From: a virus
Direction: 5' to 3' (one strand)
DNA length: 64,000 nucleotides
Virus record (IMG/VR): IMGVR_UViG_3300011445_000020
Coordinates: 1-64,000 of that record
In this document: positions 1,878 to 47,182 of the stretch, one piece after another
Position numbering within the stretch: position 1 is the first letter of the stretch
Layout: every line of letters begins with the position of its first letter
The notes under the pieces: model-generated
What the model was told of the DNA's origin: nothing
The model's input: only the letters and a program-made list of their open reading frames with translations
Database searches by the model: none
Program-made: the position numbers and the translations under genes

Positions 1878-2050
1878 TCAAGGTGCCCCTTCTGACACTC
1901 ACTAGGAAGGTGTCCAGTGATGTGCCCGTTCACGTACGAAAAGGGTGCGCCACAGTGGGGACACTTTCCATGGAGTATCTCGGGGTTAGCACCGTGTTCA
2001 TAGATGGCATCGAGCATCTTCGTGAATTCTTCCTTCGAAACTTCCTTCAC
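1862..2050 (-). CDS. Small zinc-ribbon protein
   Basis: A 62 aa protein with a helical N-terminus (KEEFTKMLDAIYEHG) and a CPHC...C..GH..C zinc ribbon at residues about 30-59. ATG at 2050 overlaps the NadV stop codon (ATGA), so it is translationally coupled to the NAD+ salvage pair. No specific role known. Confidence 0.7.
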   Translation of the reverse strand: MKEVSKEEFTKMLDAIYEHGANPEILHGKCPHCGAPFSYVNGHITGHLPSECQKGHLECSGK

Positions 2051-3432
2051 AGAGCCGCCCGGTCTCTGACCGCAGCCAGCGAGGGCACTTCATACTGGAG
2101 CCCGTTCTCGAACACGCGCACGAGGTAGTTCTTCTCGTTGAGCGCCGGGTCTTCCACGCCCGTGATGAACTTGCCTTCTGACTTGAGGAGCATGAGACGG
2201 CCGGCCTTCGACTTCTTGCTCGGGTCCGTCAGCGGGTGCTTCATCACGTCCCGCCACTGGCCCTTCACCTCGACGGCGCTGCACTTCATCGCGAAGCGGC
2301 AGGTGTCGCGGTCCATCTTCTGAAGGAGGCCGCCACCAGAACCGAACGCGATGTTGTCGATGCTCCACTTGTCACCGAGCATGCCGGCGAGGATCGTCGC
2401 GAGTGACCGCTTATCGATACCGTCGCCTTGGATCAGTCGGACCTTCGGGTTGAGGACCTTGTACCCCTCTGGGGTCAAGCTGTAGCCGAACTTCTCCCCG
2501 AGCGTGTTGAGCAGATTGAGAACGACCAGGAGCGGGTCTCCGCTGTCTGGCCGGATGATCACGGTGCCCTCTCGGAACATCACCTTGTCGCGAAGCTGCT
2601 CACCCCAGATGTTGCGGACCGCGTTGTAGATGTCGTAGCTGTCAGAGACGACGGCGACGAGGCCGGTCGGGTACTGCGCCAACATGTTCTCGTACGCAGC
2701 CTTCTCGTTGTCACGGCCCCACGAGGTGATCGTACTGTGTTCGGCAGCCGGGATGCTGAAACCGGCCATCGGCTCGTTGTAGTACTGGTTCGCCACCACG
2801 AGGGCCGCCATCGTGTCGGTGCCCTTGAAGTTCACGAGGTGGGCAGCACCTCCGATACCGGCTGACTCGTTGCTCGTACTCCCCCGGTAGCCGAAGTCGT
2901 GGAGCTTGAAGTCGAGCCCGGAAAGGTCCGCGCCGGAGGTGATCATCGCGTCCTTGATCATCTGCTTCATCGCACGCGACTGGGTACAAACGGTCGTCGG
3001 GTACCACACCTGGACAAGCAGCGTCTCCAGGTAGTTCACGAGCCATGGAAATTCAGGGTCCGTGTTCTCGATCGTCAAGAGCACGTTGCCGGTCGGGACG
3101 GTGGTTCCTTCGGGCACTGCTTTGATGATGACGGGCAGCCGTCCGCCATGCCAACGGGCGATCGTCTCCCAATCACGACGGTTGAAAAAGTCGTCGCTCC
3201 CAAAGTGCGCCTTAAAGAAGGCAGCGGCCTCGTTGATCTTCTCCATCGTGACGACAGAGCCAGCGAGGTACTTCTTGATGATGTACGAGAGGCCGAAGAA
3301 GGTCACCGCAGGGAACTCGCCACCCTTACGGGCTTCGAGGAAGGAGAAGACGCGGGTGGTGCCCGGAGGGTACTGCTTGTAGTGCGACACCTTGTAGCTG
3401 TCGGTCATCAGGAGGATGTTATCCGGCTGCAT
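2047..3432 (-). CDS. nadV: Nicotinamide phosphoribosyltransferase
   Basis: A 461 aa protein, close to the normal NAMPT length. It joins nicotinamide and PRPP to give NMN. Visible family hallmarks are DSYKVSHYKQYPPG at the N-terminus, HDFGYRGSTSNESAGIGG near residue 190, the catalytic-His motif AAEHSTITSWG near 230, VSDSYDIYN, IIRPDSGDP near 295 and the GSGGGLLQK loop. The start overlaps natV by 14 bases, so NMN passes to the next gene's product. Phages such as KVP40 carry the same nadV-natV pair, and NAMPT plus NMNAT is the NARP2 pathway that restores NAD+ consumed by bacterial defences. The anti-defence role here is inference. Confidence 0.95.
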   Translation of the reverse strand: MQPDNILLMTDSYKVSHYKQYPPGTTRVFSFLEARKGGEFPAVTFFGLSYIIKKYLAGSVVTMEKINEAAAFFKAHFGSDDFFNRRDWETIARWHGGRLPVIIKAVPEGTTVPTGNVLLTIENTDPEFPWLVNYLETLLVQVWYPTTVCTQSRAMKQMIKDAMITSGADLSGLDFKLHDFGYRGSTSNESAGIGGAAHLVNFKGTDTMAALVVANQYYNEPMAGFSIPAAEHSTITSWGRDNEKAAYENMLAQYPTGLVAVVSDSYDIYNAVRNIWGEQLRDKVMFREGTVIIRPDSGDPLLVVLNLLNTLGEKFGYSLTPEGYKVLNPKVRLIQGDGIDKRSLATILAGMLGDKWSIDNIAFGSGGGLLQKMDRDTCRFAMKCSAVEVKGQWRDVMKHPLTDPSKKSKAGRLMLLKSEGKFITGVEDPALNEKNYLVRVFENGLQYEVPSLAAVRDRAAL

Positions 3433-4324
3433 TGAGTTTCCTTTCGAGCAGATTCATGAGCAGCTTATGCTCGTCAACGAGGAGTGCCCTCGCTTGGTCG
3501 AGTCTGACCCACTGGACAGCATCGAGATCGTCGTCAGCGCGAGGCACACCGAACGTGAACCTAGCGAGAAAGAATGCCGACATTAGCCTGTCCGGACCCC
3601 GGTAGCGGTAGTCGTCGATCTGGTTCGATCCCAGGTACTCAGCATCGTACACTTCGAGCCCTGTCTCCTCGTGCACTTCCCGACGAACGGCACCTTCAAG
3701 GGTCTCGTCTCTCGGGCTGACGAAACCACCGATGAATCGAAGTTTCCCGCTGTCGCGCTTTTTCTTCCCGAGGAGAACCTCGATACCCTGACCGAAGTTC
3801 CCTACGATCGCGACGTCCACGCACTGGTACGACGTCGGGTACTTGTGCTTCGACGCGTAGATCATCCCGCGACGGAAAGCAGCACTGTCCTCTGGCTGCA
3901 CCTTCGCTCGCTCTTCAGTGCCAGAGAGAGGCTCGACTGGGGGTAGCTCGAACGTCCGCGCCTTCCCGTGGTAGTGCTTGAGAAAGCTGTCACGGCCTCC
4001 GTAGAGGACGACACCTTCCGTGTCGTTCGGTGAACTAATCTGGTGGAACTTGATCAGTTCATCCAGGTACTCTGACCAGAGATAATCAGAGGGCTGATCG
4101 CTGAGGGGAAGAACGGTGACGGTCGGGTAGGCCTTGAGGATCATCTGCTTCCGCATGTCGAAGGTAAGCGGGTCTTCGATAGTGAGTCGAGCTTCCGACT
4201 CTCCAATCACGACAAGCACGTGCTCGTGGATACCGGTGACCGCGTCGAGCAGGTAACGGTGGCCGTCGTGCAGTTCGGGTACCTGGACACGGACGACCAC
4301 CACACCGAGGGCTTGCGTCTTCAC
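3419..4324 (-). CDS. natV: Bifunctional NMN adenylyltransferase / Nudix hydrolase
   Basis: A 301 aa fusion. The N-terminal half is an NMN adenylyltransferase (NMN + ATP to NAD+) with an HDGH (HxGH) motif near residue 19 and LSGTEER, matching the ISGTxxR signature, near residue 135. The C-terminal half has a Nudix box around residues 195-220 (EGAVRREVHEETGL), one residue longer than consensus before its first Glu, and probably hydrolyses ADP-ribose or similar. This is the NadM/NatV architecture. It starts with GTG in a GTGA overlap with the preceding 44 aa gene. Confidence 0.92.
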   Translation of the reverse strand: MKTQALGVVVVRVQVPELHDGHRYLLDAVTGIHEHVLVVIGESEARLTIEDPLTFDMRKQMILKAYPTVTVLPLSDQPSDYLWSEYLDELIKFHQISSPNDTEGVVLYGGRDSFLKHYHGKARTFELPPVEPLSGTEERAKVQPEDSAAFRRGMIYASKHKYPTSYQCVDVAIVGNFGQGIEVLLGKKKRDSGKLRFIGGFVSPRDETLEGAVRREVHEETGLEVYDAEYLGSNQIDDYRYRGPDRLMSAFFLARFTFGVPRADDDLDAVQWVRLDQARALLVDEHKLLMNLLERKLNAAG

Positions 4325-4455: not shown

Positions 4456-5733
4456 CTAGTCTCCCTTCACGCTGATGATCTGACGCAAGATGTGCGTCGG
4501 TTGAACGAGTGTGCGCGCGTCGTGCATCACCGTGTCGATGTTCTTGTAAGCGCCCGGCGCTTCGTCGATGATCGCTTCCCGGATGCGCGCTTCGATTCCG
4601 AGGGCCACCATTTCTTCACGGACTTGTTCCAGAGTGAACTGCTTACGCGCTGCCCCGCGAGACATGCGGCGACCAGCACCGTGGGGTGCGGAATTGTACG
4701 AGCCCGGATTTCCGAGGCCAGTGACGATGTATGAGCGAGCGCCCATCGAGCCAGGGATGAGGCCTCGGTCGCCGACATTTGCAGAAATGGCACCCTTTCG
4801 GGTGACAAGTAGCGTCTCTTCGCCATGGGTCTCCTTGCTCACGTAGTTGTGATGGCAGTTGATCCGCTCGACCTCGATGCTCCCGTAAGTGAGAGGGAAC
4901 ACCGTTCCGCACCAGTCCGCACAACATGCGGTGCCGAGCGCGTAGTTGAGTTCCGTCAGCACTCGATCCATCATCTCTTCCCTGTTGAGGAGCGCGTACT
5001 CCTGGCACCAGAAGAGTTCCTTCATGTACGCGTGGTACTCTTCGCTCTTCTCCACGAGATACGCGAGGTCCGGGTCCGGAAGATGCGTGTCATACATGTA
5101 GCGTTCGGCATACTTCTTCGCGACGTTCGTCCAGTGGGTGCCAGTCTTGTTGCCGACGCCACGGGAACCCGAGTGAAGGATAACCCAAACTTCTTCCGGG
5201 TATCCCACGCTGTCGATGGCGTAGTCTACTTCTGGATCAGCCGAGTACGGACGGCCGATACACACCTCGATGAAGTGGTTGCCCCCACCGAGGGAACCAA
5301 GCTGGGTCCGCCAGTCCTTGGCGCGCTGGTTCATGTGGTTCTTGTCACCCCAGTTCCTCTCGGCGAGAGCTTCAAGCTTCTCGATCCGGGCCTGGGCCGA
5401 AGGGAGGATACGCGAGTTCATCCCGTACGGGCCGATGCCGAGCGGGATGCGCCGCTCGATGCCCTCGCGGATGGTCTGGAGGTGCGGCTTCACCTGCTCG
5501 GGCTTCAGCGTGGTACGAACTGCGATCATCCCGCAGCCGATGTCCACCCCGACGCACGCGGGCATGACTGCGCCCTTCGTCGCGACGACGGTCCCGACGG
5601 TGCTCCCTCGGCCCCAGTGGACGTCGGGCATGACCGCGAGACCACGGACGAACGGGAGCGAAGCAGTACGTTCGACCTGGGCCATCGCTTCGTCCTCGAT
5701 CAGGGAAGCGAAGAGTCTGATCTTAGCGTTCAT
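4456..5733 (-). CDS. rtcB: RNA-splicing ligase RtcB
   Basis: A 425 aa protein, full-length for the family. RtcB joins RNA 2',3'-cyclic phosphate or 3'-phosphate ends to 5'-OH ends through a guanylylated His. Seen motifs: GVDIGCGM (metal ligands), GGNHFIEV, HSGSRGVGNKTG, the CCADWCG region and HGAGRRMSR, whose His is the guanylylation site. ATG at 5733 is chosen because AAGGA lies 7 bases upstream and the protein begins at the conserved N-terminus. It likely repairs tRNAs or mRNAs cut by host ribotoxins. Its substrates are also exactly the ends made by the three hammerhead ribozymes in this arm. Confidence 0.95.
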   Translation of the reverse strand: MNAKIRLFASLIEDEAMAQVERTASLPFVRGLAVMPDVHWGRGSTVGTVVATKGAVMPACVGVDIGCGMIAVRTTLKPEQVKPHLQTIREGIERRIPLGIGPYGMNSRILPSAQARIEKLEALAERNWGDKNHMNQRAKDWRTQLGSLGGGNHFIEVCIGRPYSADPEVDYAIDSVGYPEEVWVILHSGSRGVGNKTGTHWTNVAKKYAERYMYDTHLPDPDLAYLVEKSEEYHAYMKELFWCQEYALLNREEMMDRVLTELNYALGTACCADWCGTVFPLTYGSIEVERINCHHNYVSKETHGEETLLVTRKGAISANVGDRGLIPGSMGARSYIVTGLGNPGSYNSAPHGAGRRMSRGAARKQFTLEQVREEMVALGIEARIREAIIDEAPGAYKNIDTVMHDARTLVQPTHILRQIISVKGD

Positions 5734-9172: not shown

Positions 9173-9663
9173 TTTTCCATCTCCTTCTTGAGGGTGGCTC
9201 GTAGCTTAGACCACCGCGCGATTGCGGTATCGATCGCCCTGAGCATTTGTGGTGTTTTTGGGCACGTCTTGAGGTCAGCGTAGTCTACTGCCATGAGCGT
9301 TATATTTGTCGCTTCGATGATCTTGTCTACGAGAGTCGTGACGTTCGCGACTCGTGTGCGCCACGCAGCAGGACTCTCTGCAAGTTGCTGATGGCTTGGA
9401 GCAGGCTTCTTCGCACGTGCTACGGGTTGTTTCCGTGCCTTGCCATCCTTGCCGACCCGTTTCTCAACTGGCGCTTTTGCGCCGGTTCGTGCTCTTCGCA
9501 CAGAGTCTTTCCCTACTCCGATCTTCTCCGCGATGGCGCGGTTCGACATCTCAGGGTTAGCAGCTACTGCTGCCTTCGCAAGCTCTCCTGCTGGCACGTA
9601 GGCAACGCCACAACTACACGACGCATGCGCTGACGCTCCACAAGAGGAGCATTTAAGGTTCAT
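9169..9663 (-). CDS. Zinc-ribbon plus HTH DNA-binding protein
   Basis: A 164 aa protein. Residues 1-20 have CSSC...CSCG, a short zinc-binding motif. Residues 38-66 (NRAIAEKIGVGKDSVRRART) form a helix-turn-helix of the kind found in phage regulators. A KKP/KxA-rich linker and a helical C-terminal domain follow. Probably a transcription factor of the early arm; target unknown. Confidence 0.65.
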   Translation of the reverse strand: MNLKCSSCGASAHASCSCGVAYVPAGELAKAAVAANPEMSNRAIAEKIGVGKDSVRRARTGAKAPVEKRVGKDGKARKQPVARAKKPAPSHQQLAESPAAWRTRVANVTTLVDKIIEATNITLMAVDYADLKTCPKTPQMLRAIDTAIARWSKLRATLKKEMEK

Positions 9664-10391
9664 CGTTTCTCCGTAGTGGGTTTGAACCAGAGGTCAGGGT
9701 AGAGGGTTTGCATCTGCTGTAGGATGTTCCTGTACTTGAGGACCAGGAGGGTCATCGTTTGGTACGCGTTGGTCTGGAAGGCGCGGAGGAGTTCATTCTG
9801 AACGCGCTCCACCGGGAGCCCAGAGAGGTTGACGTAGAAGTTGAGCGCCGCATCGAGGGCGGGTGCGGCAGTGAAACCCTCGGTGACCATGAAGCGGAGT
9901 GCACGGAGTCCACGAAGCGGGTCCTCTTCGAGGCGCTCGCCTGCGTCACCGACAGCACGCAGGATGCGGTCCACGGCGTCACGCTTGCCGCCGTACGGAT
10001 CGATCCACTCGCCTGCCTCAGAGATCGCGACAGCGTTGACGGTGAAGTCACGACGGCTGAGGTCCTCCCAGAGGTGGGTCGGGGTGACGGTGTCCGGGTG
10101 ACGACCGTCCGAGTACATCGCTTCCTTCCGGCAGAGGGTGAAGTCAGCATCGACGACACCGCTGTAACCACGGAGGACACCAGCGAACCAGTTCACGTGC
10201 GTGATCGGGAGTCGGCCACGGAGGGTGACGAACTTCTCACGCTCCTGCCAGATGGTGAGCCCGTAGTTGGTGACCAGTTCCTCCTTCATCGCTTCGTAGG
10301 ATTCGGCTTCGACTGCGAAGTCGAGGTCCTTCGTGGGAGGAAGGCCGAGCATGTAACGGCGGACGGTTCCGCCAACGAGGTAGAGCTTCAT
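9660..10391 (-). CDS. cca: tRNA nucleotidyltransferase (CCA-adding type)
   Basis: A 243 aa class II nucleotidyltransferase. Motifs: VGGTVRR at residues 6-12, DLDFAV (metal-binding DxD) near 23, LSRRDFTVNAVA near 113, DPYGGKRDAVDRILRAVG, and EDPLRGLRALRF near 155. It is shorter than cellular CCA enzymes (about 400 aa), lacking most of the body/tail domain, as in several phage homologues. It restores CCA ends to tRNAs, and so fits with RtcB and the RlaP-like protein as an RNA repair set. ATGA overlaps on both sides. Confidence 0.9.
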   Translation of the reverse strand: MKLYLVGGTVRRYMLGLPPTKDLDFAVEAESYEAMKEELVTNYGLTIWQEREKFVTLRGRLPITHVNWFAGVLRGYSGVVDADFTLCRKEAMYSDGRHPDTVTPTHLWEDLSRRDFTVNAVAISEAGEWIDPYGGKRDAVDRILRAVGDAGERLEEDPLRGLRALRFMVTEGFTAAPALDAALNFYVNLSGLPVERVQNELLRAFQTNAYQTMTLLVLKYRNILQQMQTLYPDLWFKPTTEKR

Positions 10392-13096: not shown

Positions 13097-13263
13097 GTGC
13101 ACCTCCCGCAGTATCCGCAAGCCTGCGAGCACGTACGTTCGCTCGGGTTGTAGTACTGCGGCGTTTGAGAACGGCGTGGTGATGGCTCAGGTTTCGCGAG
13201 CCGCTCCTGCGCACGCTCGATAGCTGCGTCGCGGAAGTCACGATTGATCTCTTCGTTGTTCAG
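13093..13263 (-). CDS. Candidate 56-aa protein with a CTG start
   Basis: A frame fills the gap between two genes exactly: its TGA overlaps the ATG at 13096 (ATGA), and it opens at CTG 13263, overlapping the previous stop as CTGA, with GGAGG just upstream. The peptide NNEEINRDFRDAAIERAQER looks native, and it ends with a CSQACGYCGRC zinc-like cluster. No ATG, GTG or TTG is available near the start. CTG use is inferred, so confidence is limited. Confidence 0.42.
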   Translation of the reverse strand: MNNEEINRDFRDAAIERAQERLAKPEPSPRRSQTPQYYNPSERTCSQACGYCGRCT

Positions 13264-13463
13264 ATGTCCTCCAGACGATCGTGCGCGTGCGTGAGGTTGA
13301 GAAGCGTGAGATTGAGGAAGGTAGACAACAGGGGGTTACCGATGCCATCGTCGCCTACATCACGCAACGCGTGGCGAATCTCGTTGCGGGCGGTCTCGAT
13401 GCGCGTACGGAGGCGATCGATCGCTCCAGCACGTGCGATTGCGTCAGCGGTGTTGCGTGCCAT
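13260..13463 (-). CDS. Small helical protein
   Basis: ATG 13463 with GGAGG upstream gives a 67 aa helical protein (RNTADAIARAGAIDRLRTRI...). It is the first gene downstream of hammerhead ribozyme 1, whose CUGAUGA-GUCC strand ends 19 bases before the start codon. No known family. Confidence 0.55.
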   Translation of the reverse strand: MARNTADAIARAGAIDRLRTRIETARNEIRHALRDVGDDGIGNPLLSTFLNLTLLNLTHAHDRLEDI

Positions 13464-13482: not shown

Positions 13483-13580
13483 GGACTCATCAGCACCAGC
13501 GTATACTGGTGGACACGTAGAGTGACCGGAGCGTCCGAAAGGGACCGAGAACCATCCTCCGGGCTCTGCGTGTTTCGTCC
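13483..13580 (-). ncRNA. Hammerhead ribozyme 1 (type II)
   Basis: On the minus strand, 5' to 3': GGAC (13580-13577), GAA (13576-13574), ACACG (13573-13569), a 51-base loop III, CGUGU (13517-13513), C17 at 13512, a stem I hairpin CACCAG-UAUACG-CUGGUG (13511-13494), the core CUGAUGA (13493-13487) and GUCC (13486-13483). Stem III (ACACG/CGUGU), stem I (6 bp) and stem II (GGAC/GUCC) all pair, and the conserved core GAA, UH and CUGANGA is intact with a GUC-type cleavage site after 13512. The ends open on stem II, hence type II. Loop III folds further (CCGGAG/CUCCGG, GUCC/GGAC). It starts right after a TAA stop codon. Confidence 0.87.
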
Positions 13581-13727
13581 TTACTTCACCAGAGCCATCG
13601 CAGCCACGTAGGCCCGCGACTTCTCCTTCGCACGGCCCCCAACGAGGGCACTCTCATCTGCGTTCCGGCCTTCCCGCCAGTCGGCAACCTCGGTGACAGC
13701 GTTGTACGCTGCCCACACGGTGCGCCA
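13581..13727 (-). pseudogene. C-terminal remnant of a DUF932 protein
   Basis: One minus frame without its own start encodes TVWAAYNAVTEVADWREG... and ends ...VAAMALVK at 13581. W..YNAVTE..D is the hallmark near the C-terminus of the DUF932 phage/plasmid family (about 250-350 aa when complete). AGGAGG and an ATG at 13728 lie just upstream, but that ATG is in another phase and gives only 24 codons (13654-13728). This looks like an internally deleted, frameshifted gene. Its stop codon abuts ribozyme 1. Confidence 0.55.
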
Positions 13728-13741
13728 TTAGTGTGCCTCCT

Positions 13742-13915
13742 CTACGAGACGGGTTCGATGATGATGGTTCCGTTTCCGGGGACGATGCGCATCGGTCTGT
13801 CGCTCAGGGTCGTTGTGAACGAGACAACACCACGCTCGGTCACGTTAGGAAACTCCTTCGCCTTCCACGTGCGCGCATGGCGTTCGTGGCTCAGGATCAA
13901 GGTGATCTCGTACAT
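13742..13915 (-). CDS. Small hypothetical protein between ribozymes 1 and 2
   Basis: ATG 13915 with AGGAG upstream; a 57 aa beta-rich product (MYEITLILSHERHARTWKAK, SFTTTLSDRPMRIV, GTIIIEPVS). The open frame extends upstream through ribozyme 2, but that part is not protein-like. After cleavage at both type II ribozymes this gene would sit on the excised RNA of about 451 nt. Function unknown. Confidence 0.6.
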   Translation of the reverse strand: MYEITLILSHERHARTWKAKEFPNVTERGVVSFTTTLSDRPMRIVPGNGTIIIEPVS

Positions 13916-13933
13916 TGGTAGACTCCTCTGTGT

Positions 13934-14064
13934 GGACTCATCAGTGTGCGCAGTTACGCACAGACGCGCGTGGTTCTTAGCAGAGCACTTTCTCTGGCTC
14001 TGCATCTTGCAGCCGCTTCAGCCCTAGCCGGGCATCCACGGGCACTACCACGCGCGTTTCGTCC
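13934..14064 (-). ncRNA. Hammerhead ribozyme 2 (type II)
   Basis: On the minus strand: GGAC (14064-14061), GAA (14060-14058), the 11-nt stem III strand ACGCGCGUGGU (14057-14047), a 72-base loop, its perfect partner ACCACGCGCGU (13974-13964), C17 at 13963, stem I UGUGCG-UAACUG-CGCACA (13962-13945), core CUGAUGA (13944-13938) and GUCC (13937-13934). Every conserved core element is present. Stem III is 11 bp, stem I 6 bp and stem II 4 bp. The first G of GGAC is the last base of the upstream TAG stop codon. Its stem II arms are identical to those of ribozyme 1. Confidence 0.92.
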
Positions 14065-14189
14065 TAGTTCTGCTCTGCGCAGTCGCAGTGATCGAGGTGA
14101 CAGGCGCAGTGCTCGCACCATGCCCACTCTTCAGCGGGGATATTGCGGATGTCGAAATCGAGCGGGACAACAACCTCAGTCTTCGGCAT
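14064..14189 (-). CDS. Cys-rich small protein (41 aa) between ribozymes 2 and 3
   Basis: ATG 14189 with GAGGAG upstream. The product begins PKTEVVVPLDFDIRNIPAEE and ends WCEHCACHLDHCDCAEQN, a possible zinc-binding cluster. The stop codon TAG shares its G with ribozyme 2. It is the first gene of the leftward transcript after ribozyme 3. No family known. Confidence 0.55.
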   Translation of the reverse strand: MPKTEVVVPLDFDIRNIPAEEWAWCEHCACHLDHCDCAEQN

Positions 14190-14202
14190 GATGTGGCTCC
14201 TC

Positions 14203-14316
14203 GCGGTTTCGCCCTCGCGGGCTCGTCAGTGGTGCGATTCTCTCGATACACTTCCGTGCGTTCTAACCGGACGCTATCCGGCTTCGCTCACACGAGAGAA
14301 TCTAGCACCAGACCGC
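14203..14316 (-). ncRNA. Hammerhead ribozyme 3 (type III)
   Basis: On the minus strand: GCGGU (14316-14312), C17 at 14311, stem I UGGUGC (14310-14305) continued by AUUCUCUCG (14301-14293), a structured loop, CGAGAGAAU (14245-14237) and GCACCA (14235-14230), core CUGACGA (14229-14223), stem II GCCC-GCGA-GGGC with a GNRA tetraloop (14222-14211), GAA (14210-14208) and ACCGC (14207-14203), which pairs with GCGGU as stem III. The ends open on stem III, hence type III. N7 is C, which the core allows. Stem III is only 5 bp, and a promoter-like sequence overlaps the 5' part. Confidence 0.82.
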
Positions 14317-14328: not shown

Positions 14329-14841
14329 GGTCGTTCCACTGGGTCATCGCGTTTTCAGCCGACTGCGCTGCTAACCGCTCGCACCGTGATAGCGTGCGTC
14401 TCTTGGTCGCGGTAGGTCGCTCTAGTGTGCGTCACCTTGGAGTGTCTGATTGGCCTGCTTCGCGACGCCTTGCGGGCGTTGTTCGCTGGCAGGTTTCGTT
14501 GGAGCGTGCTCGCATCAGCTATGGTCGGGTCGTGAATGGCACTCGACGTGCGCGGGCCTCTAGAGGGCCGTGTGACCTGCTTCGCGCTTCGCTCGCTCCT
14601 GTCACGGGGTTCGCTTGCTGCTTCCGTCCCACGGCGGCCCTGTCGGGCGCTTCGGGCTCTGACGCTTACCTCGTGTGAGGATTCACTATCGCACTCTCTG
14701 TGCCAGCCTGTAACTTGTGCTGCCACAATACCGCAGCCACCGAAGGAACCTCGATCCTGGGCGAAATGCCATTGCGTCAGGGGCATCTAGCAACGTCTTC
14801 ATGCCAGCCGTTTCTCGCCCGCCGCGCCTCCTCATGTGCCC
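14317..14841. other. Non-coding divergent region, nothing clear
   Basis: About 525 bases between the left arm and the rightward promoter. It is GC-rich, with short repeated GCTTCGC-type words. Long open frames exist on both strands but are Arg/Ser/Ala-rich and lack ribosome sites. It may hold an origin, structured RNA or distal control sites; I see no clear iterons or terminator. Confidence 0.4.
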
Positions 14842-15125: not shown

Positions 15126-15443
15126 ATGCGACCGAAGTCCGATCCTCTTGCGGGCCATAGACTTATACAGAGACGGTACCGCAATACCCCCAAGTCGAAA
15201 CGCGCCCGTAGAGTCTTTCAATGGCGCTCTTCGGGGCTCACGGCAGAGCTTTTCGATCAGATGGTTATCGCTCAGGGCGGTCTCTGCTCAATCTGCTTAC
15301 AGCAGCTACGTCAGTTGCATGTAGACCACGACCATCAGACTGGTGCGATCCGAGGTCTCCTCTGTCCAGGATGCAACATGGGACTTGGGAACTTTCGGGA
15401 TGATCCGAAGAGTTTGATCCGCGCCGCCCTCTACCTCCTGTAG
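15126..15443 (+). CDS. HNH endonuclease, endonuclease VII type
   Basis: A 105 aa protein with the recombination endonuclease VII (T4 gp49-like) core: CSICLQQ, HVDHDHQTGAIRGLLCPGCN and a helical end. Small members like this act mostly as homing or nicking nucleases. It is the first gene of the rightward block. Paralogues at 22442 and 28277 share the layout. AGGGG lies 8 bases upstream of ATG 15126. Confidence 0.88.
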   Translation: MRPKSDPLAGHRLIQRRYRNTPKSKRARRVFQWRSSGLTAELFDQMVIAQGGLCSICLQQLRQLHVDHDHQTGAIRGLLCPGCNMGLGNFRDDPKSLIRAALYLL

Positions 15444-17894: not shown

Positions 17895-17918
17895 GCTCAC
17901 TAGCTGTTGGGAGTACCA

Positions 17919-19856
17919 ATGGCAAAGACTGCTGACATCACTTGGGACCTGGATGCGGAACGTGACCTATGGCGTTCGATCTGCGCTCCGAACTCTTGGT
18001 TCGCGGAAGACGGCGAAACTGTAGGGACACACCCCCAGTCCCTCTGGTACTTCGTCACGAAAGCGTGGGGCGCGGAAGCCTTCCTCAAGGCGAACCCTGC
18101 CGAACCACGTTGGCTCTACGAGCCGATCCATCGGCCCTACCTCGGCTGGTGGCAGAAGCACCTGCTCGCCTGGAAGACCCGCGCCCTCTCAGGCGTCCCT
18201 GGCCGAACACATCTCGCCTCGATCCTCCCTCGTGGCTTCGGAAAGACCGTCTGCGGCACCAAGGCCGCATCCCTCTGGACGCATCTCGACGACGGCAACA
18301 TGACAACGCTGATCCAGTCCGCCACCGAAGAGTTCTCGCTCGGCGTACTCGAAGCGCAGCAGACAGTCATGGCGGGCGAAGATAGCACCTCCTGGTTCTG
18401 CTGGCTCTATGGCAACTGGAAGGACGGCTCGAAGGCCTGGACGAAGAAGTACACGAATCACGGCCTCCGCACCTCACACAACATCAACGAGCCATCGCTC
18501 GACACCTCGTCGGCCGCGATCGGCTCCACCGGATACCATCCCCGCCAGTGCTGGTGGGATGACCCTCTCCAGAAGACGAAGCTCCGTGCTGAGCGCGTTG
18601 CCTACCTCCGTGGGCAGCAAGAGGCGGTCAACGCTGCCTTCAACTCGGTCCACACTAACGGGCTCATCGTCCTCAACCTCACCCGCTACCTCGACAACGA
18701 CATCGCTGGAGAACACCTCCGTAAGGGAGGCGTTGCATCATGGGAGGGCATGACTTGTCCCCACATGGCGACCTTCGACCAAGTTCCATTTGGTGAAGGC
18801 ATCTGGCATGTCTTCTTCTACCAGACGGAAGACGAAGCCACCGGCGAGCCGACGAATCCGCAACTCTGGGACAAGGCGATGATCGCCCAGGCTAAGCACC
18901 GCGACGCGGAAGACTTCGCCTGCCAGCAGCAGAACAATCCAGGCTCGGGTGAACACGCGCCTCTCGTCGAGTCACAGATTCCGTGGCTCTACATGTCCTA
19001 TCCCGATTTTCGTTGGGAGGTCACCCCACAGTGGGCGACTATCCACATCGACACCGCGTTCAAGAACGCGCAGAACATCGGCGCGGGCGACTACAGCGCG
19101 ATCGTCGTCTGGATCAAGGACACGAAGGACAACGGTATCCTCTACCTGGACACCGATCTCCTACGCGCTTCAAACACGTGGCGTGAAGAAGATTTCAACA
19201 AGGAACTCGTCAAGGTCTGCCTCGCACTCCGCAAGCGTGGCATCTACATTCGCGCGATCACCGACGAGAAGGAGCCCGGTGGTAAAGAGGGCACCTACAA
19301 GAACCGAATCCTCGGCATCCTCCGCACAGCCGGCTTCATGTTCTCGGAAGACCAGTTCATCCAGTTCAACCGCACCACGGAGAAGAAGGCACGCATCCGT
19401 ACCGCCGTCGGCCATTGGGCCGAAGGCTACGTCCGCATCCTCCTCCACCGCGATCACTGTGACTGTCCTCCTCCCGAGTACGATCGGCTCACGAATCGCT
19501 ACCTCCCTCGGCAGTGTCCGCACTTCGTCGTCCCGCCTGTCGTCAAGACGCTGATCGATCAGATCGTGCGCGTTGACGTCGTCGGCCACGATGACATCGC
19601 AGATGCGATGACGGACGGCTTCACCAAGCAGTGTGGGTGGATGCCTCCCGCAGTCAAGCCGAGTGACCCCCGCGACGAGGGGGCCATCCCGAAGCGCCCG
19701 TGGGACGAAGACCTGAAGACGGTCGGCAAAGCAATGTCATACGACGAACTCAACCAGTTCCTCGCGGATCGGGATGAGGCAGCTTCCGCTGGCCTCATGT
19801 CTCCTGGTCACGGGTGGGACGATGATTCCTGGTCCTCCCCGCGAGAACCAGTCTGA
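17919..19856 (+). CDS. terL: Terminase large subunit
   Basis: A 645 aa packaging motor. The N-terminal ATPase has a Walker A-like LPRGFGKT near residue 100 and a QCWWDDP Walker B-like strand near 205. The C-terminal RNase H-like nuclease shows HIDTAF near 375 and HDDIADAMTDGF near 565. Cuts concatemers and pumps DNA into the prohead through the portal. ATG 17919 is used because GGGAG precedes it; a TTG four codons earlier is less likely. Its C-terminal extension is acidic and Pro-rich. Confidence 0.92.
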   Translation: MAKTADITWDLDAERDLWRSICAPNSWFAEDGETVGTHPQSLWYFVTKAWGAEAFLKANPAEPRWLYEPIHRPYLGWWQKHLLAWKTRALSGVPGRTHLASILPRGFGKTVCGTKAASLWTHLDDGNMTTLIQSATEEFSLGVLEAQQTVMAGEDSTSWFCWLYGNWKDGSKAWTKKYTNHGLRTSHNINEPSLDTSSAAIGSTGYHPRQCWWDDPLQKTKLRAERVAYLRGQQEAVNAAFNSVHTNGLIVLNLTRYLDNDIAGEHLRKGGVASWEGMTCPHMATFDQVPFGEGIWHVFFYQTEDEATGEPTNPQLWDKAMIAQAKHRDAEDFACQQQNNPGSGEHAPLVESQIPWLYMSYPDFRWEVTPQWATIHIDTAFKNAQNIGAGDYSAIVVWIKDTKDNGILYLDTDLLRASNTWREEDFNKELVKVCLALRKRGIYIRAITDEKEPGGKEGTYKNRILGILRTAGFMFSEDQFIQFNRTTEKKARIRTAVGHWAEGYVRILLHRDHCDCPPPEYDRLTNRYLPRQCPHFVVPPVVKTLIDQIVRVDVVGHDDIADAMTDGFTKQCGWMPPAVKPSDPRDEGAIPKRPWDEDLKTVGKAMSYDELNQFLADRDEAASAGLMSPGHGWDDDSWSSPREPV

Positions 19857-21873: not shown

Positions 21874-22452
21874 ATGGCCCGCATCATCTTCTTCGACTTG
21901 GAGACGCGCAAGTGGGCATCGGACCTACGTCCCGATGACATCGATGCAGGGTGGGATGAGCTTCGCTCCGGAAAGGGCGGTGCCTCTGCCATTGCCCTCT
22001 ACGATACACGCGATGCCTGGCTCTACCTCTACGACGACAACACGATCGAGCAGTGCGCTCGCCACCTGGAAGCCGCTGACATCATCGTGGGTTACTGCTC
22101 CACGCGTTTCGATCTACCTTGCATCGAGGGGATCGCAAACAGACGCCTCCGCATTCGCCGGCACATCGACATCTATCAACTCCTAGTCGATGCGCATCGA
22201 GTTGCCAACATTCCCACTGCGAAAGGTGATCTAACGCTCGATCGCATTGCGAAGCGTAACCTCGGGCGGGGCAAGATTGACCACGGCTCGAATGTGAAAG
22301 AACTCATGCGCAAGGGGCACTGGGCGAAGTTGTTCAACTACTGCGGGTCTGACGTTCAACTCACGCGGGACCTGTACACTAAGATGGTCGCTGATAGCGG
22401 TTTGGTCGGCCCCCGAGGATTCATCCGTCTGGAGATTTCCAATGGCCTGTAA
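21874..22452 (+). CDS. DnaQ-like 3'-5' exonuclease
   Basis: A 192 aa RNase H-like exonuclease. FFDLET at residues 6-11 gives the first D/E pair, VGYCSTRFDLP near 70 gives the second (N-F-D type) motif, and YCGSDVQLTRDLY near 155 the third D. It removes nucleotides from 3' ends of DNA or RNA. It is unusual among packaging genes. Its last bases overlap the HNH gene at 22442, as if the HNH gene had inserted at this junction. Confidence 0.75.
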   Translation: MARIIFFDLETRKWASDLRPDDIDAGWDELRSGKGGASAIALYDTRDAWLYLYDDNTIEQCARHLEAADIIVGYCSTRFDLPCIEGIANRRLRIRRHIDIYQLLVDAHRVANIPTAKGDLTLDRIAKRNLGRGKIDHGSNVKELMRKGHWAKLFNYCGSDVQLTRDLYTKMVADSGLVGPRGFIRLEISNGL

Positions 22453-22783
22453 GAGTGAAGATGCCATCGCGCGTGACCGAGCGAGGGCACGTCAGTGGTA
22501 TAGAGATCAATCCACCGAACGTAAGAAAGAAATATGGTTGAAGCGTGCTTACGGGATTGACCTGGTTACCTACGAAGCGATGGTTAAAGAACAGAAAGGC
22601 CTCTGTGCAATCTGCCGGAGAGAACCTCTTGTTCTCCACGTAGATCACGATCACGAGACGAATCGTGTGCGGGGTCTTCTTTGCGGTTCTTGCAACCGTG
22701 CAATCGGTCTTTTGCAGGAGAGTCTAGAAACTCTCCAGCACGCGATCGAGTACCTCAAGAGGACAAATGATCGGCACGATTGA
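22442..22783 (+). CDS. HNH endonuclease, endonuclease VII type
   Basis: A 113 aa protein with a basic N-terminus (ARDRARARQWYRDQS), CAICRREPL, VDHDHETNRVRGLLCGSCNR and a helical C-terminus. It overlaps the exonuclease gene and the portal gene by a few codons and so exploits existing junctions. A paralogue of 15126 and 28277. Confidence 0.87.
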   Translation: MACKSEDAIARDRARARQWYRDQSTERKKEIWLKRAYGIDLVTYEAMVKEQKGLCAICRREPLVLHVDHDHETNRVRGLLCGSCNRAIGLLQESLETLQHAIEYLKRTNDRHD

Positions 22784-28276: not shown

Positions 28277-28609
28277 GTGAGCAAACGATCCGAGTACATC
28301 AAGCGGTGGCTGGAGAAACATCCTGGCCGAAAGCGTGATTATCGACTTCGTTCAGCGTACGGGATCACTCTCGAACAATATCAAGGTATGGTAGAACAAC
28401 AGAAGGGTCTCTGTGCTCTCTGTGGAAATCCTCCCCGAGGCACAAAGATGAACGATCGGTCACTCAACGTTGACCATGATCATGTTACAGGACAAATCAG
28501 GGGCCTCCTCTGTGGTCCTTGCAACAAGGGTCTGGGCCTTTTAGGTGACAACCTTGATTCTCTGTGGAAAGCGATTCATTATCTGGAAGGAGCTTCCCAT
28601 GAGCAGTGA
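28277..28609 (+). CDS. HNH endonuclease, endonuclease VII type
   Basis: A 110 aa protein started by GTG with AAAGGAGG upstream. Core: CALCGNPPRG, then LNVDHDHVTGQIRGLLCGPC and NKGLGLLGDN. The third endonuclease VII-like gene in the plus-strand block, again overlapping the start of the next gene (by 11 bases). Probably a free-standing homing nuclease. Confidence 0.87.
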   Translation: MSKRSEYIKRWLEKHPGRKRDYRLRSAYGITLEQYQGMVEQQKGLCALCGNPPRGTKMNDRSLNVDHDHVTGQIRGLLCGPCNKGLGLLGDNLDSLWKAIHYLEGASHEQ

Positions 28610-46280: not shown

Positions 46281-46355
46281 TGGGGAGGCGGGATTCGAAC
46301 CCGCGTTCTCCTGCGTCCAAGGCAGGCGGTGTAGACCAGACTCACCTACTCCCCA
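46281..46355 (-). tRNA. tRNA-Pro (TGG)
   Basis: Acceptor TGGGGAG/CTCCCCA, D stem GGTG/CACC, anticodon arm CCTGC-CTTGGAC-GCAGG with TGG, T arm GCGGG-TTCGAAT-CCCGC. All stems are perfect. Its 5' ten bases overlap the last codons and TAG stop of the RlaP-like gene, so RNase P processing would cut that mRNA inside its final codons. Confidence 0.92.
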
Positions 46356-47182
46356 ATGTCAGCACCTCCACCCCACGTTTCCAGATACCCTTGTACCATG
46401 AGTTTCTGGATGTAATGCTCGTTAGGATGCTTACGCAACTTCGAAGTCGCGAAGGCACGTTCTGCACGAATAAACAACGTCTCAGCCTCTGCCGTAACCT
46501 GTTCGAGTGACCACTTCCCGCTCTTGATGGCGATCAGATCGTGTGCGTCAAAATCGCGGTACACATGGAGTCGTCCGCTCTCGAACGCTTCGCACGCCAT
46601 CCGGAGAAGTCGAATCAGGTGAGAGGCATTCTTCACGTCGTAGCCGAACTTCTCTACGAGCGCCTTCCGCTTCTCGCCCATGTACCCCTGATGCGCATGA
46701 TGGGTCATCTTGTACATCTGGCCACGCGCGTAGCCGATAAACGCCGGGTACATCTGGTTCGATAGGAGTAGCTCACGGTTCACGAGCAGGTTTTTCAACG
46801 CTTCACTCTTCGGATTAACCCAGGAATGCTCACGCATAAGCCAGAGGGTGCCGACCACATTCGGATTCGACTTCCGGAGCATGTGCAACCACTTCTGCCA
46901 ATCGTAGAGGACGACGTCCCACTTTCCATGCTTATACTCTGCATGGTCCCAGTTCTTAAGCCCGAGCTTGAACTTTGGTGGGGGCGCGCAGACGACCATC
47001 AGATCGACATCATCGATGCCATACTTGTCAGTGGGCGGGATATACGTTCCGTGGCTGTGCGATCCGACGTGGAACACCCCAAGGACAGCTTCATCAAGAT
47101 CGAAAGGGATCGCGTGTGCGATATCGGGCTTGACCTCGTTCCATATGTCCTGAACCACTTCGAGCCCCCAATCTTTGTTCAC
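46346..47182 (-). CDS. rlaP: RlaP-like nucleotidyltransferase (RNA repair associated)
   Basis: A 278 aa DNA polymerase beta-superfamily nucleotidyltransferase. The GSHSHGT motif at residues 38-44 and DDVDLMVV near 59 form the metal site, as in the YcgL/RlaP family, which cluster with RNA ligases and repair genes. It probably adds or acts on nucleotides at RNA ends; exact reaction unknown. Overlaps the exonuclease gene at its start and tRNA-Pro at its end, an apt position for an RNA repair enzyme. Confidence 0.8.
   Translation of the reverse strand: MNKDWGLEVVQDIWNEVKPDIAHAIPFDLDEAVLGVFHVGSHSHGTYIPPTDKYGIDDVDLMVVCAPPPKFKLGLKNWDHAEYKHGKWDVVLYDWQKWLHMLRKSNPNVVGTLWLMREHSWVNPKSEALKNLLVNRELLLSNQMYPAFIGYARGQMYKMTHHAHQGYMGEKRKALVEKFGYDVKNASHLIRLLRMACEAFESGRLHVYRDFDAHDLIAIKSGKWSLEQVTAEAETLFIRAERAFATSKLRKHPNEHYIQKLMVQGYLETWGGGADIGE

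Follow-up and report, generated by a model that had tools for sequence, protein, structure and literature searches.

What do three hammerhead motifs do among the tiny genes at the start of a phage's leftward transcript? The question is raised by the 64,000-nucleotide stretch of viral DNA analysed here (the window), in which the first-pass annotation had claimed three complete minus-strand hammerheads, one type III and two type II, that would cut a polycistronic RNA between its cistrons in a phage that also encodes the RNA ligase RtcB. The motifs and their folds, strand, synteny and covariation were computed, as was their exact location after a stop codon and ahead of a Shine-Dalgarno sequence.

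Three hammerhead motifs on the minus strand

Both strands of the window were searched, in all three permutations, with a descriptor consisting of a CUGANGA core, GAAA, a UH cleavage dinucleotide and three helices. The descriptor finds exactly three hammerheads, all on the minus strand and with the positions and types claimed, and predicts cleavage after C14311 (type III), C13963 (type II) and C13512 (type II). Across 400 dinucleotide shuffles there were 0.0975 matches per shuffled window, two at most, and 0.0025 per shuffled window at the stem lengths of the three hammerheads. Control phage DNA amounting to 589 kb gave two poor matches. The shuffle counts rule out a chance origin of the three-element set.

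HHR3 (14203-14316, minus strand) has stem III open and stems I and II closed, which is the type III layout. It is composed of stem III GCGGU/ACCGC, a long stem I with a UA bulge, the core CUGACGA and stem II GCCC-GCGA-GGGC, and it is identified by the descriptor, by its minimum-energy fold, and by counterparts in relatives that occupy the same place on the same strand and whose stems covary. HHR2 (13934-14064) and HHR1 (13483-13580), on the same strand, have stems I and III closed by loops and stem II open, the type II layout, and both are identified by the descriptor, the fold and an independent covariance model. They share the core CUGAUGA and stem II GGAC/GUCC; HHR2 has an 11-bp stem III with a long loop and stem I UGUGCG/CGCACA, and HHR1 an extended stem III ACACG/CGUGU and stem I CACCAG/CUGGUG. 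When each of the three ribozymes is folded over its full length with no constraint, the minimum-energy structure is the hammerhead (-50.8 kcal/mol for HHR3, -60.5 for HHR2 and -36.8 for HHR1). When longer stretches are folded, flanking sequence competes with the outer stem II of HHR2 and with the core helices of HHR3.

Three matches to hammerhead covariance models had also been expected. This failed with Rfam 15, whose models detect no hammerhead in the window at the gathering score and, at E up to 10, return a single spurious type I match spanning other bases. It held for HHR1 and HHR2 with our own type II model, for which 27 compact ribozymes of this type were taken from phages not belonging to the window's family. 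That model recovers HHR1 (13580-13483) with an E of 8.5e-18 and the HHR2 site (13934) with an E of 1.5e-7, the 5' side of HHR2 being misplaced because of its long loop; the next-best match in the window has an E of 0.014. Because the model was built for type II only, HHR3 rests on the descriptor, the fold and synteny. The loops closed by stem III in HHR1 and HHR2 and by stem I in HHR3 span about 50-90 nt, and we infer that Rfam misses these hammerheads because long loops are penalised, a problem of sensitivity. Genome annotation undercounts hammerheads when Rfam misses those with a long loop. The three elements are confirmed as hammerhead motifs interleaved with tiny genes, and self-cleavage is predicted from their sequence.

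Small genes and leader of the leftward transcript

The sequence and its open reading frames (ORFs) bear out the annotated minus-strand order: HHR3, a 41-aa gene, HHR2, a 57-aa gene, a DUF932 remnant, HHR1 and a 67-aa gene. The 41-aa gene (14064-14189, minus strand) has the Shine-Dalgarno sequence GAGGAG, and the base with which stem II of HHR2 begins belongs to its UAG stop. The 57-aa gene (13742-13915, minus strand; Shine-Dalgarno AGAGGAG) has its start codon 18 nt past HHR2, and the 67-aa gene (13260-13463, minus strand; Shine-Dalgarno GGAGGAAG) has its own 19 nt past HHR1. All three are read as ORFs, and their proteins show no family match in Pfam or PHROGs.

The DUF932 remnant (13581-13728, minus strand) opens with an ATG at 13728, continues in another frame as a DUF932 C-terminal end, and has its UAA stop directly before HHR1. 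It is too short to give a Pfam match of its own. It is nonetheless real, as had been proposed, since its residues WAAYNAVTEVADW match the ends of the complete DUF932 (PF06067) proteins encoded at L074:6140-7183 and L066:5276-6319, full-length genes that end in the same motif. In these unrelated phages, a DUF932 gene repeatedly stands immediately upstream of a type II hammerhead; of the window's copy, the C-terminal end alone survives. Elsewhere in the window, several small proteins resembling HNH homing endonucleases by eye (15126-15443, 22442-22783 and 28277-28609) are scattered between structural genes.

A conserved element, TGAAAACGCGATGACC, lies on the minus strand at 14342-14357, 26 bases upstream of HHR3, and similar sequences occur at a nearly equal distance from the type III ribozyme in L001, L002, L187 and L020. 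We take it as a candidate for the promoter of the leftward transcript or for an element of its leader. There is also a sigma-70-like match, TTGACG-18-TAGATT (14328-14299), that overlaps HHR3. A transcript from it would start inside HHR3 stem I and so miss the HHR3 cut. L001 has a similar pair; we rejected the match as the main promoter because it is not kept in L002 or L003.

Conservation and covariation in relatives

BLAST of the first 25 kb of the window against isolated phages gave no match, and the window terminase (17907-19853) has matches of only 22-23%. With this terminase as lead, IMG/VR yielded 10 and then 68 relatives, from which we counted 23 distinct loci after merging near-duplicates and keeping those whose sequence extends some 4.9 kb or more upstream of the terminase. 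Hammerheads are recognised in about 15 of the 23, in the same place and always on the minus strand. The carriers are the window, L001, L002, L003, L009, L020, L142, L147, L160, L170 (the weakest), L177, L180 and L187, together with L168 and L179, whose cores are variant. In the terminase relatives the hammerheads lie on the minus strand only, 3.3 to 7.1 kb upstream of the terminase, and in L142, L002, L160/L162 and L020 a type III comes first, nearest the divergent intergenic region, with type II downstream.

In L168 (3640-3760 and 3300-3460) both ribozymes have the core CCGAUGA and one additional base ahead of stem II. In L179 (4470-4580) an A is inserted after A6 of the core, a kind of variant noted as slow in Perreault et al. 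2011 (PMC3088659). The descriptor missed both and they were recovered by the covariance model and by reading; absence in other relatives is therefore unproven. About 8 of the 23 relatives have no recognisable hammerhead, absences that are soft with contigs that are mostly fragments, and in such relatives the function would be dispensable or replaced.

Pairing in related genomes, on which the first-pass annotation had staked its claim, is kept with compensatory changes: the letters of stems I, II and III differ between relatives and change in pairs. Since the descriptor demands pairing, the paired fractions are partly built in (for type III stem I, 1.00 with its own strand versus 0.62 between ribozymes; for the type II model, 99.5%); as controls served the opposite strand, which is empty, the remainder of each locus, and random contigs. 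Double changes occur in 12 of the 15 type II pairs, and the type II covariation score is 0.784 versus 0.193 when shuffled, a value reached by none of 500 shuffles.

Arrays in other phages

A narrow type II pattern matched at least 120 stretches in IMG/VR, and a sister pattern with longer loops matched 10. Among the matches listed, type II arrays on one strand reach 12 ribozymes in 5.5 kb in L113 (1651-7239), nine in L098 (5454-11441), eight in L110 (3035-6289) and seven in both L092 (7234-11137) and L121 (7314-9687), with five in L011, L021, L025, L030 and others. The five largest far exceed the window's array and mostly have one ORF per interval; our own covariance model confirms members of these five and of L011. 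Nearly every interval in L121 and L110 is one ORF, which starts 12-30 nt past a ribozyme and ends within a few bases of the next.

The hammerheads share a single strand in 63 of the 65 loci that have at least two, among the matches listed. For the 236 phage-contig type II ribozymes among these matches, the upstream stop codon lies a median of 2 nt before the ribozyme, and a Shine-Dalgarno sequence with a start codon follows downstream in 77% (median 25 nt), compared with 27% (median 48) at random positions. Mixed-type arrays among the matches listed have the type III first in every case, implausible matches in L106 and L165 having been set aside. Clustered phage hammerheads are very common, and the window is a small, three-ribozyme case.

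Such ribozymes were also found in the bacterial genomes of Streptomyces iakyrus, Phycicoccus jejuensis, Kutzneria viridogrisea, Lentzea cavernae, Sciscionella marina and Microvirga lupini. The cultured M. lupini Lut6 (L217:1712-3341) has a type III followed by two type II on one strand, which is the order in the window. P. jejuensis NRRL B-24460 (L211) and S. iakyrus NRRL ISP-5482 (L212) are unrelated genomes, yet both carry what seems to be one and the same array of three hammerheads, with spacing and scores identical, which suggests either a shared phage or assembly cross-contamination.

Predicted cutting of the polycistronic RNA

Cutting between cistrons, as originally suggested, is the likely role that we predict: it agrees with the fold, with synteny and covariation, and with a location after a stop codon and before a Shine-Dalgarno sequence. 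We think it probable, on this evidence, that the three elements are cis-acting hammerheads that cut the nascent leftward polycistronic RNA, which is probably early, into near single-gene mRNAs. Transcription, cleavage and an effect on expression in the window phage we infer. HHR3 would trim the 5' leader immediately before the 41-aa gene, a position that suits a type III because it needs few bases upstream of its cut, while HHR2 and HHR1 would cut co-transcriptionally in the gaps between genes. Cutting is predicted to release a short leader whose last base is 14311 and, after it, three RNAs: an mRNA of 348 nt for the 41-aa gene (14310-13963), an RNA of 451 nt that carries the 57-aa gene together with the DUF932 remnant (13962-13512), and one that starts at 13511.

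Because stems I and III of a type II are closed, both new ends would carry a hairpin. The upstream RNA would end in the stem III hairpin with a 2',3'-cyclic phosphate, and the downstream mRNA would begin with a 5'-OH, the stem I hairpin, the Shine-Dalgarno sequence and the start codon. 5'-OH ends evade 5'-phosphate-sensing decay. One transcript would thereby become near single-gene mRNAs with uniform hairpin-guarded ends, and the dose and stability of each small gene would be independent of its neighbours.

The loop I-tail pseudoknot has 0 bp in HHR1 and 3 bp in HHR2, below the 4 bp typical of type II, which makes their cleavage speed at cellular Mg2+ uncertain. According to Perreault et al. 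2011 (PMC3088659), this pseudoknot is present in most but not all type II ribozymes, a usual rather than a defining feature. A 4-bp loop I-tail pseudoknot is likewise missing from 202 of the 247 distinct type II ribozymes among the matches listed, and the loop I of HHR1 and HHR2 is short like that of these 202. The commonest loop I form among the collected type II ribozymes in these matches, GUNANGC, hints at another tertiary contact.

We propose more tentatively, stopping just short of backing it, that phages may widely punctuate their early operons, with a type III at the promoter trimming the leader and a type II after nearly every gene, the cutting possibly being coupled to translation. 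If true, early phage RNA would become single-gene mRNAs with defined, hairpin-guarded ends in a rule-bound manner. The role of hammerheads in bacteria and phages has been called an open question of the field (PMC6155905). The regular layout, with a type III at the head, a type II per gene fitted exactly between stop codon and ribosome-binding site, and 5 to 12 ribozymes per array in several phages, opens the idea of mRNA cutting to a direct test.

Alternative readings and the place of RtcB

The tight spacing could instead reflect a translation-coupled switch, in which a terminating ribosome blocks folding and the cut falls on untranslated or slowly translated RNA, tuning expression. HHR2 sharing a base with the UAG stop and HHR1 coming directly after the UAA are what such a switch would call for, as is the short median distance from stop to ribozyme across phages among the matches listed. 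However, the compactness of phage genomes would by itself produce such spacing in the absence of regulation, no sequence feature other than spacing favours the switch, and the type III leader ribozyme HHR3 has no gene upstream. We consider it unlikely as an account of the locus. We give still less credence to the idea that the ribozymes are passengers, intergenic modules, either mobile or inherited, that travel with adjacent genes and leave expression unaffected. Their patchy presence among relatives, the varying neighbour genes and the persistence of HHR1 behind a decayed DUF932 gene would fit such a history. Passengers would decay, however, and here the cores are intact, the stems covary over deep divergence, and strand, position and the III-before-II order are kept.

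A further possibility, raised by the neighbourhood itself, is that RtcB rejoins or circularises the cut pieces into spliced or circular coding RNAs. RtcB lies on the same genome arm as the array, as annotated (4456-5733, minus strand), is a full-length match to PF01139 (E 3.6e-112), and acts on substrates that are chemically the ends left by hammerheads, a 2',3'-cyclic phosphate and a 5'-OH. Stem II pairing between the two ends of an RNA unit would also be possible for 63 of the 104 pairs of adjacent type II ribozymes among the matches listed; in the other 41 a full stem II is impossible. A self-reconstituting circle through a shared stem II, possible in just those 63 of 104 neighbouring units, was rejected as a rule. 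Against rejoining, of the 46 unrelated hammerhead phage contigs that reach 28 kb or more among the matches listed, arrays of five to nine ribozymes included, one encodes RtcB; of 27 random control contigs, none does. Within the family, contigs of at least about 57 kb give counter-examples both ways: the window, L147, L162, L170 and L189 have RtcB and hammerheads, but L142 (63 kb) has the same III-II-II array with RtcB absent, RtcB is present in L163 and L010 with no hammerhead detected, and L186 has neither RtcB nor a recognised hammerhead. Moreover, spliced and circular products were sought and none found by Perreault et al. 2011 (PMC3088659). We regard rejoining as highly improbable. The proposed tie between RtcB and the ribozymes is not supported; RtcB is a trait of the window's phage family, independent of the ribozymes and not shown to be part of their system, and the idea should be dropped unless experiments revive it.

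A simpler reading of RtcB is tRNA repair. RtcB and RlaP form a phage kit that repairs cut tRNAs, with RlaP and a CCA-adding enzyme as companions of RtcB (PMC7824862). The window phage likewise encodes both RtcB and RlaP, the latter a nucleotidyltransferase recognised by Pfam at 46346-47182, as well as the Pfam-matched head domain of a CCA-adding/poly(A) polymerase (9660-10391) that lacks the full RNA-binding part. That kit differs from a ribozyme system in answering host-defence tRNA cleavage and in having no known tie to hammerheads. By reading only, 2047-3432 and 3419-4324 encode putative nicotinamide phosphoribosyltransferase-like and Nudix-like proteins. RlaP, the CCA-adding head domain and these two putative proteins look like a kit for RNA repair and NAD salvage.

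Relation to known hammerhead systems

The first-pass annotation had taken an interleaved array to be undescribed, but clustered and even triple prophage hammerheads were published in 2011 (Perreault et al., PMC3088659). In that paper, multiple hammerheads in prophages flank individual genes or short blocks of them; a triple set, at ardA of Agrobacterium tumefaciens, cleaves in vitro and in E. coli, and comparable prophage clusters cleave in vitro. As in the window, several hammerheads sit in the gaps of phage operons and flank single small genes, the genes themselves being mixed, and the role suggested for them was to divide long phage RNAs into mRNAs of about one gene each. The window has several close hammerheads that flank single genes or short blocks of one transcription unit. 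Its array is a known kind of arrangement, and the broader pattern is worth experiment.

Compared with the 2011 clusters, the window's array belongs to a family of free-phage contigs of about 64 kb with RtcB, the type III is always at the head here (a mixed order may show in Figure 3 of that paper), and other contigs reach 12 type II per array among the matches listed. Apart from Perreault et al. 2011, a search of the literature other than subscription papers and preprints turned up no account of arrays of hammerheads in free phages. HHR1 and HHR2 resemble the type II ribozymes of bacteria and phages in that work in their closed stems I and III, open stem II, standard core and usual GUC site, and differ in their short loop I without the 4-bp loop I-tail pseudoknot. 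The halovirus HF1/HF2 hammerhead, described there too, likewise stands a few bases before a phage start codon and gives a 5'-OH mRNA; it differs in being single, upstream of a helicase gene in a halophilic archaeal virus, with no array. Self-cleaving ribozymes have also been placed between cistrons for ribozyme-assisted polycistronic co-expression, as far as the design of Liu et al. 2022 is described in PMC12819055. That design is synthetic, and the phage arrays would be its natural counterpart.
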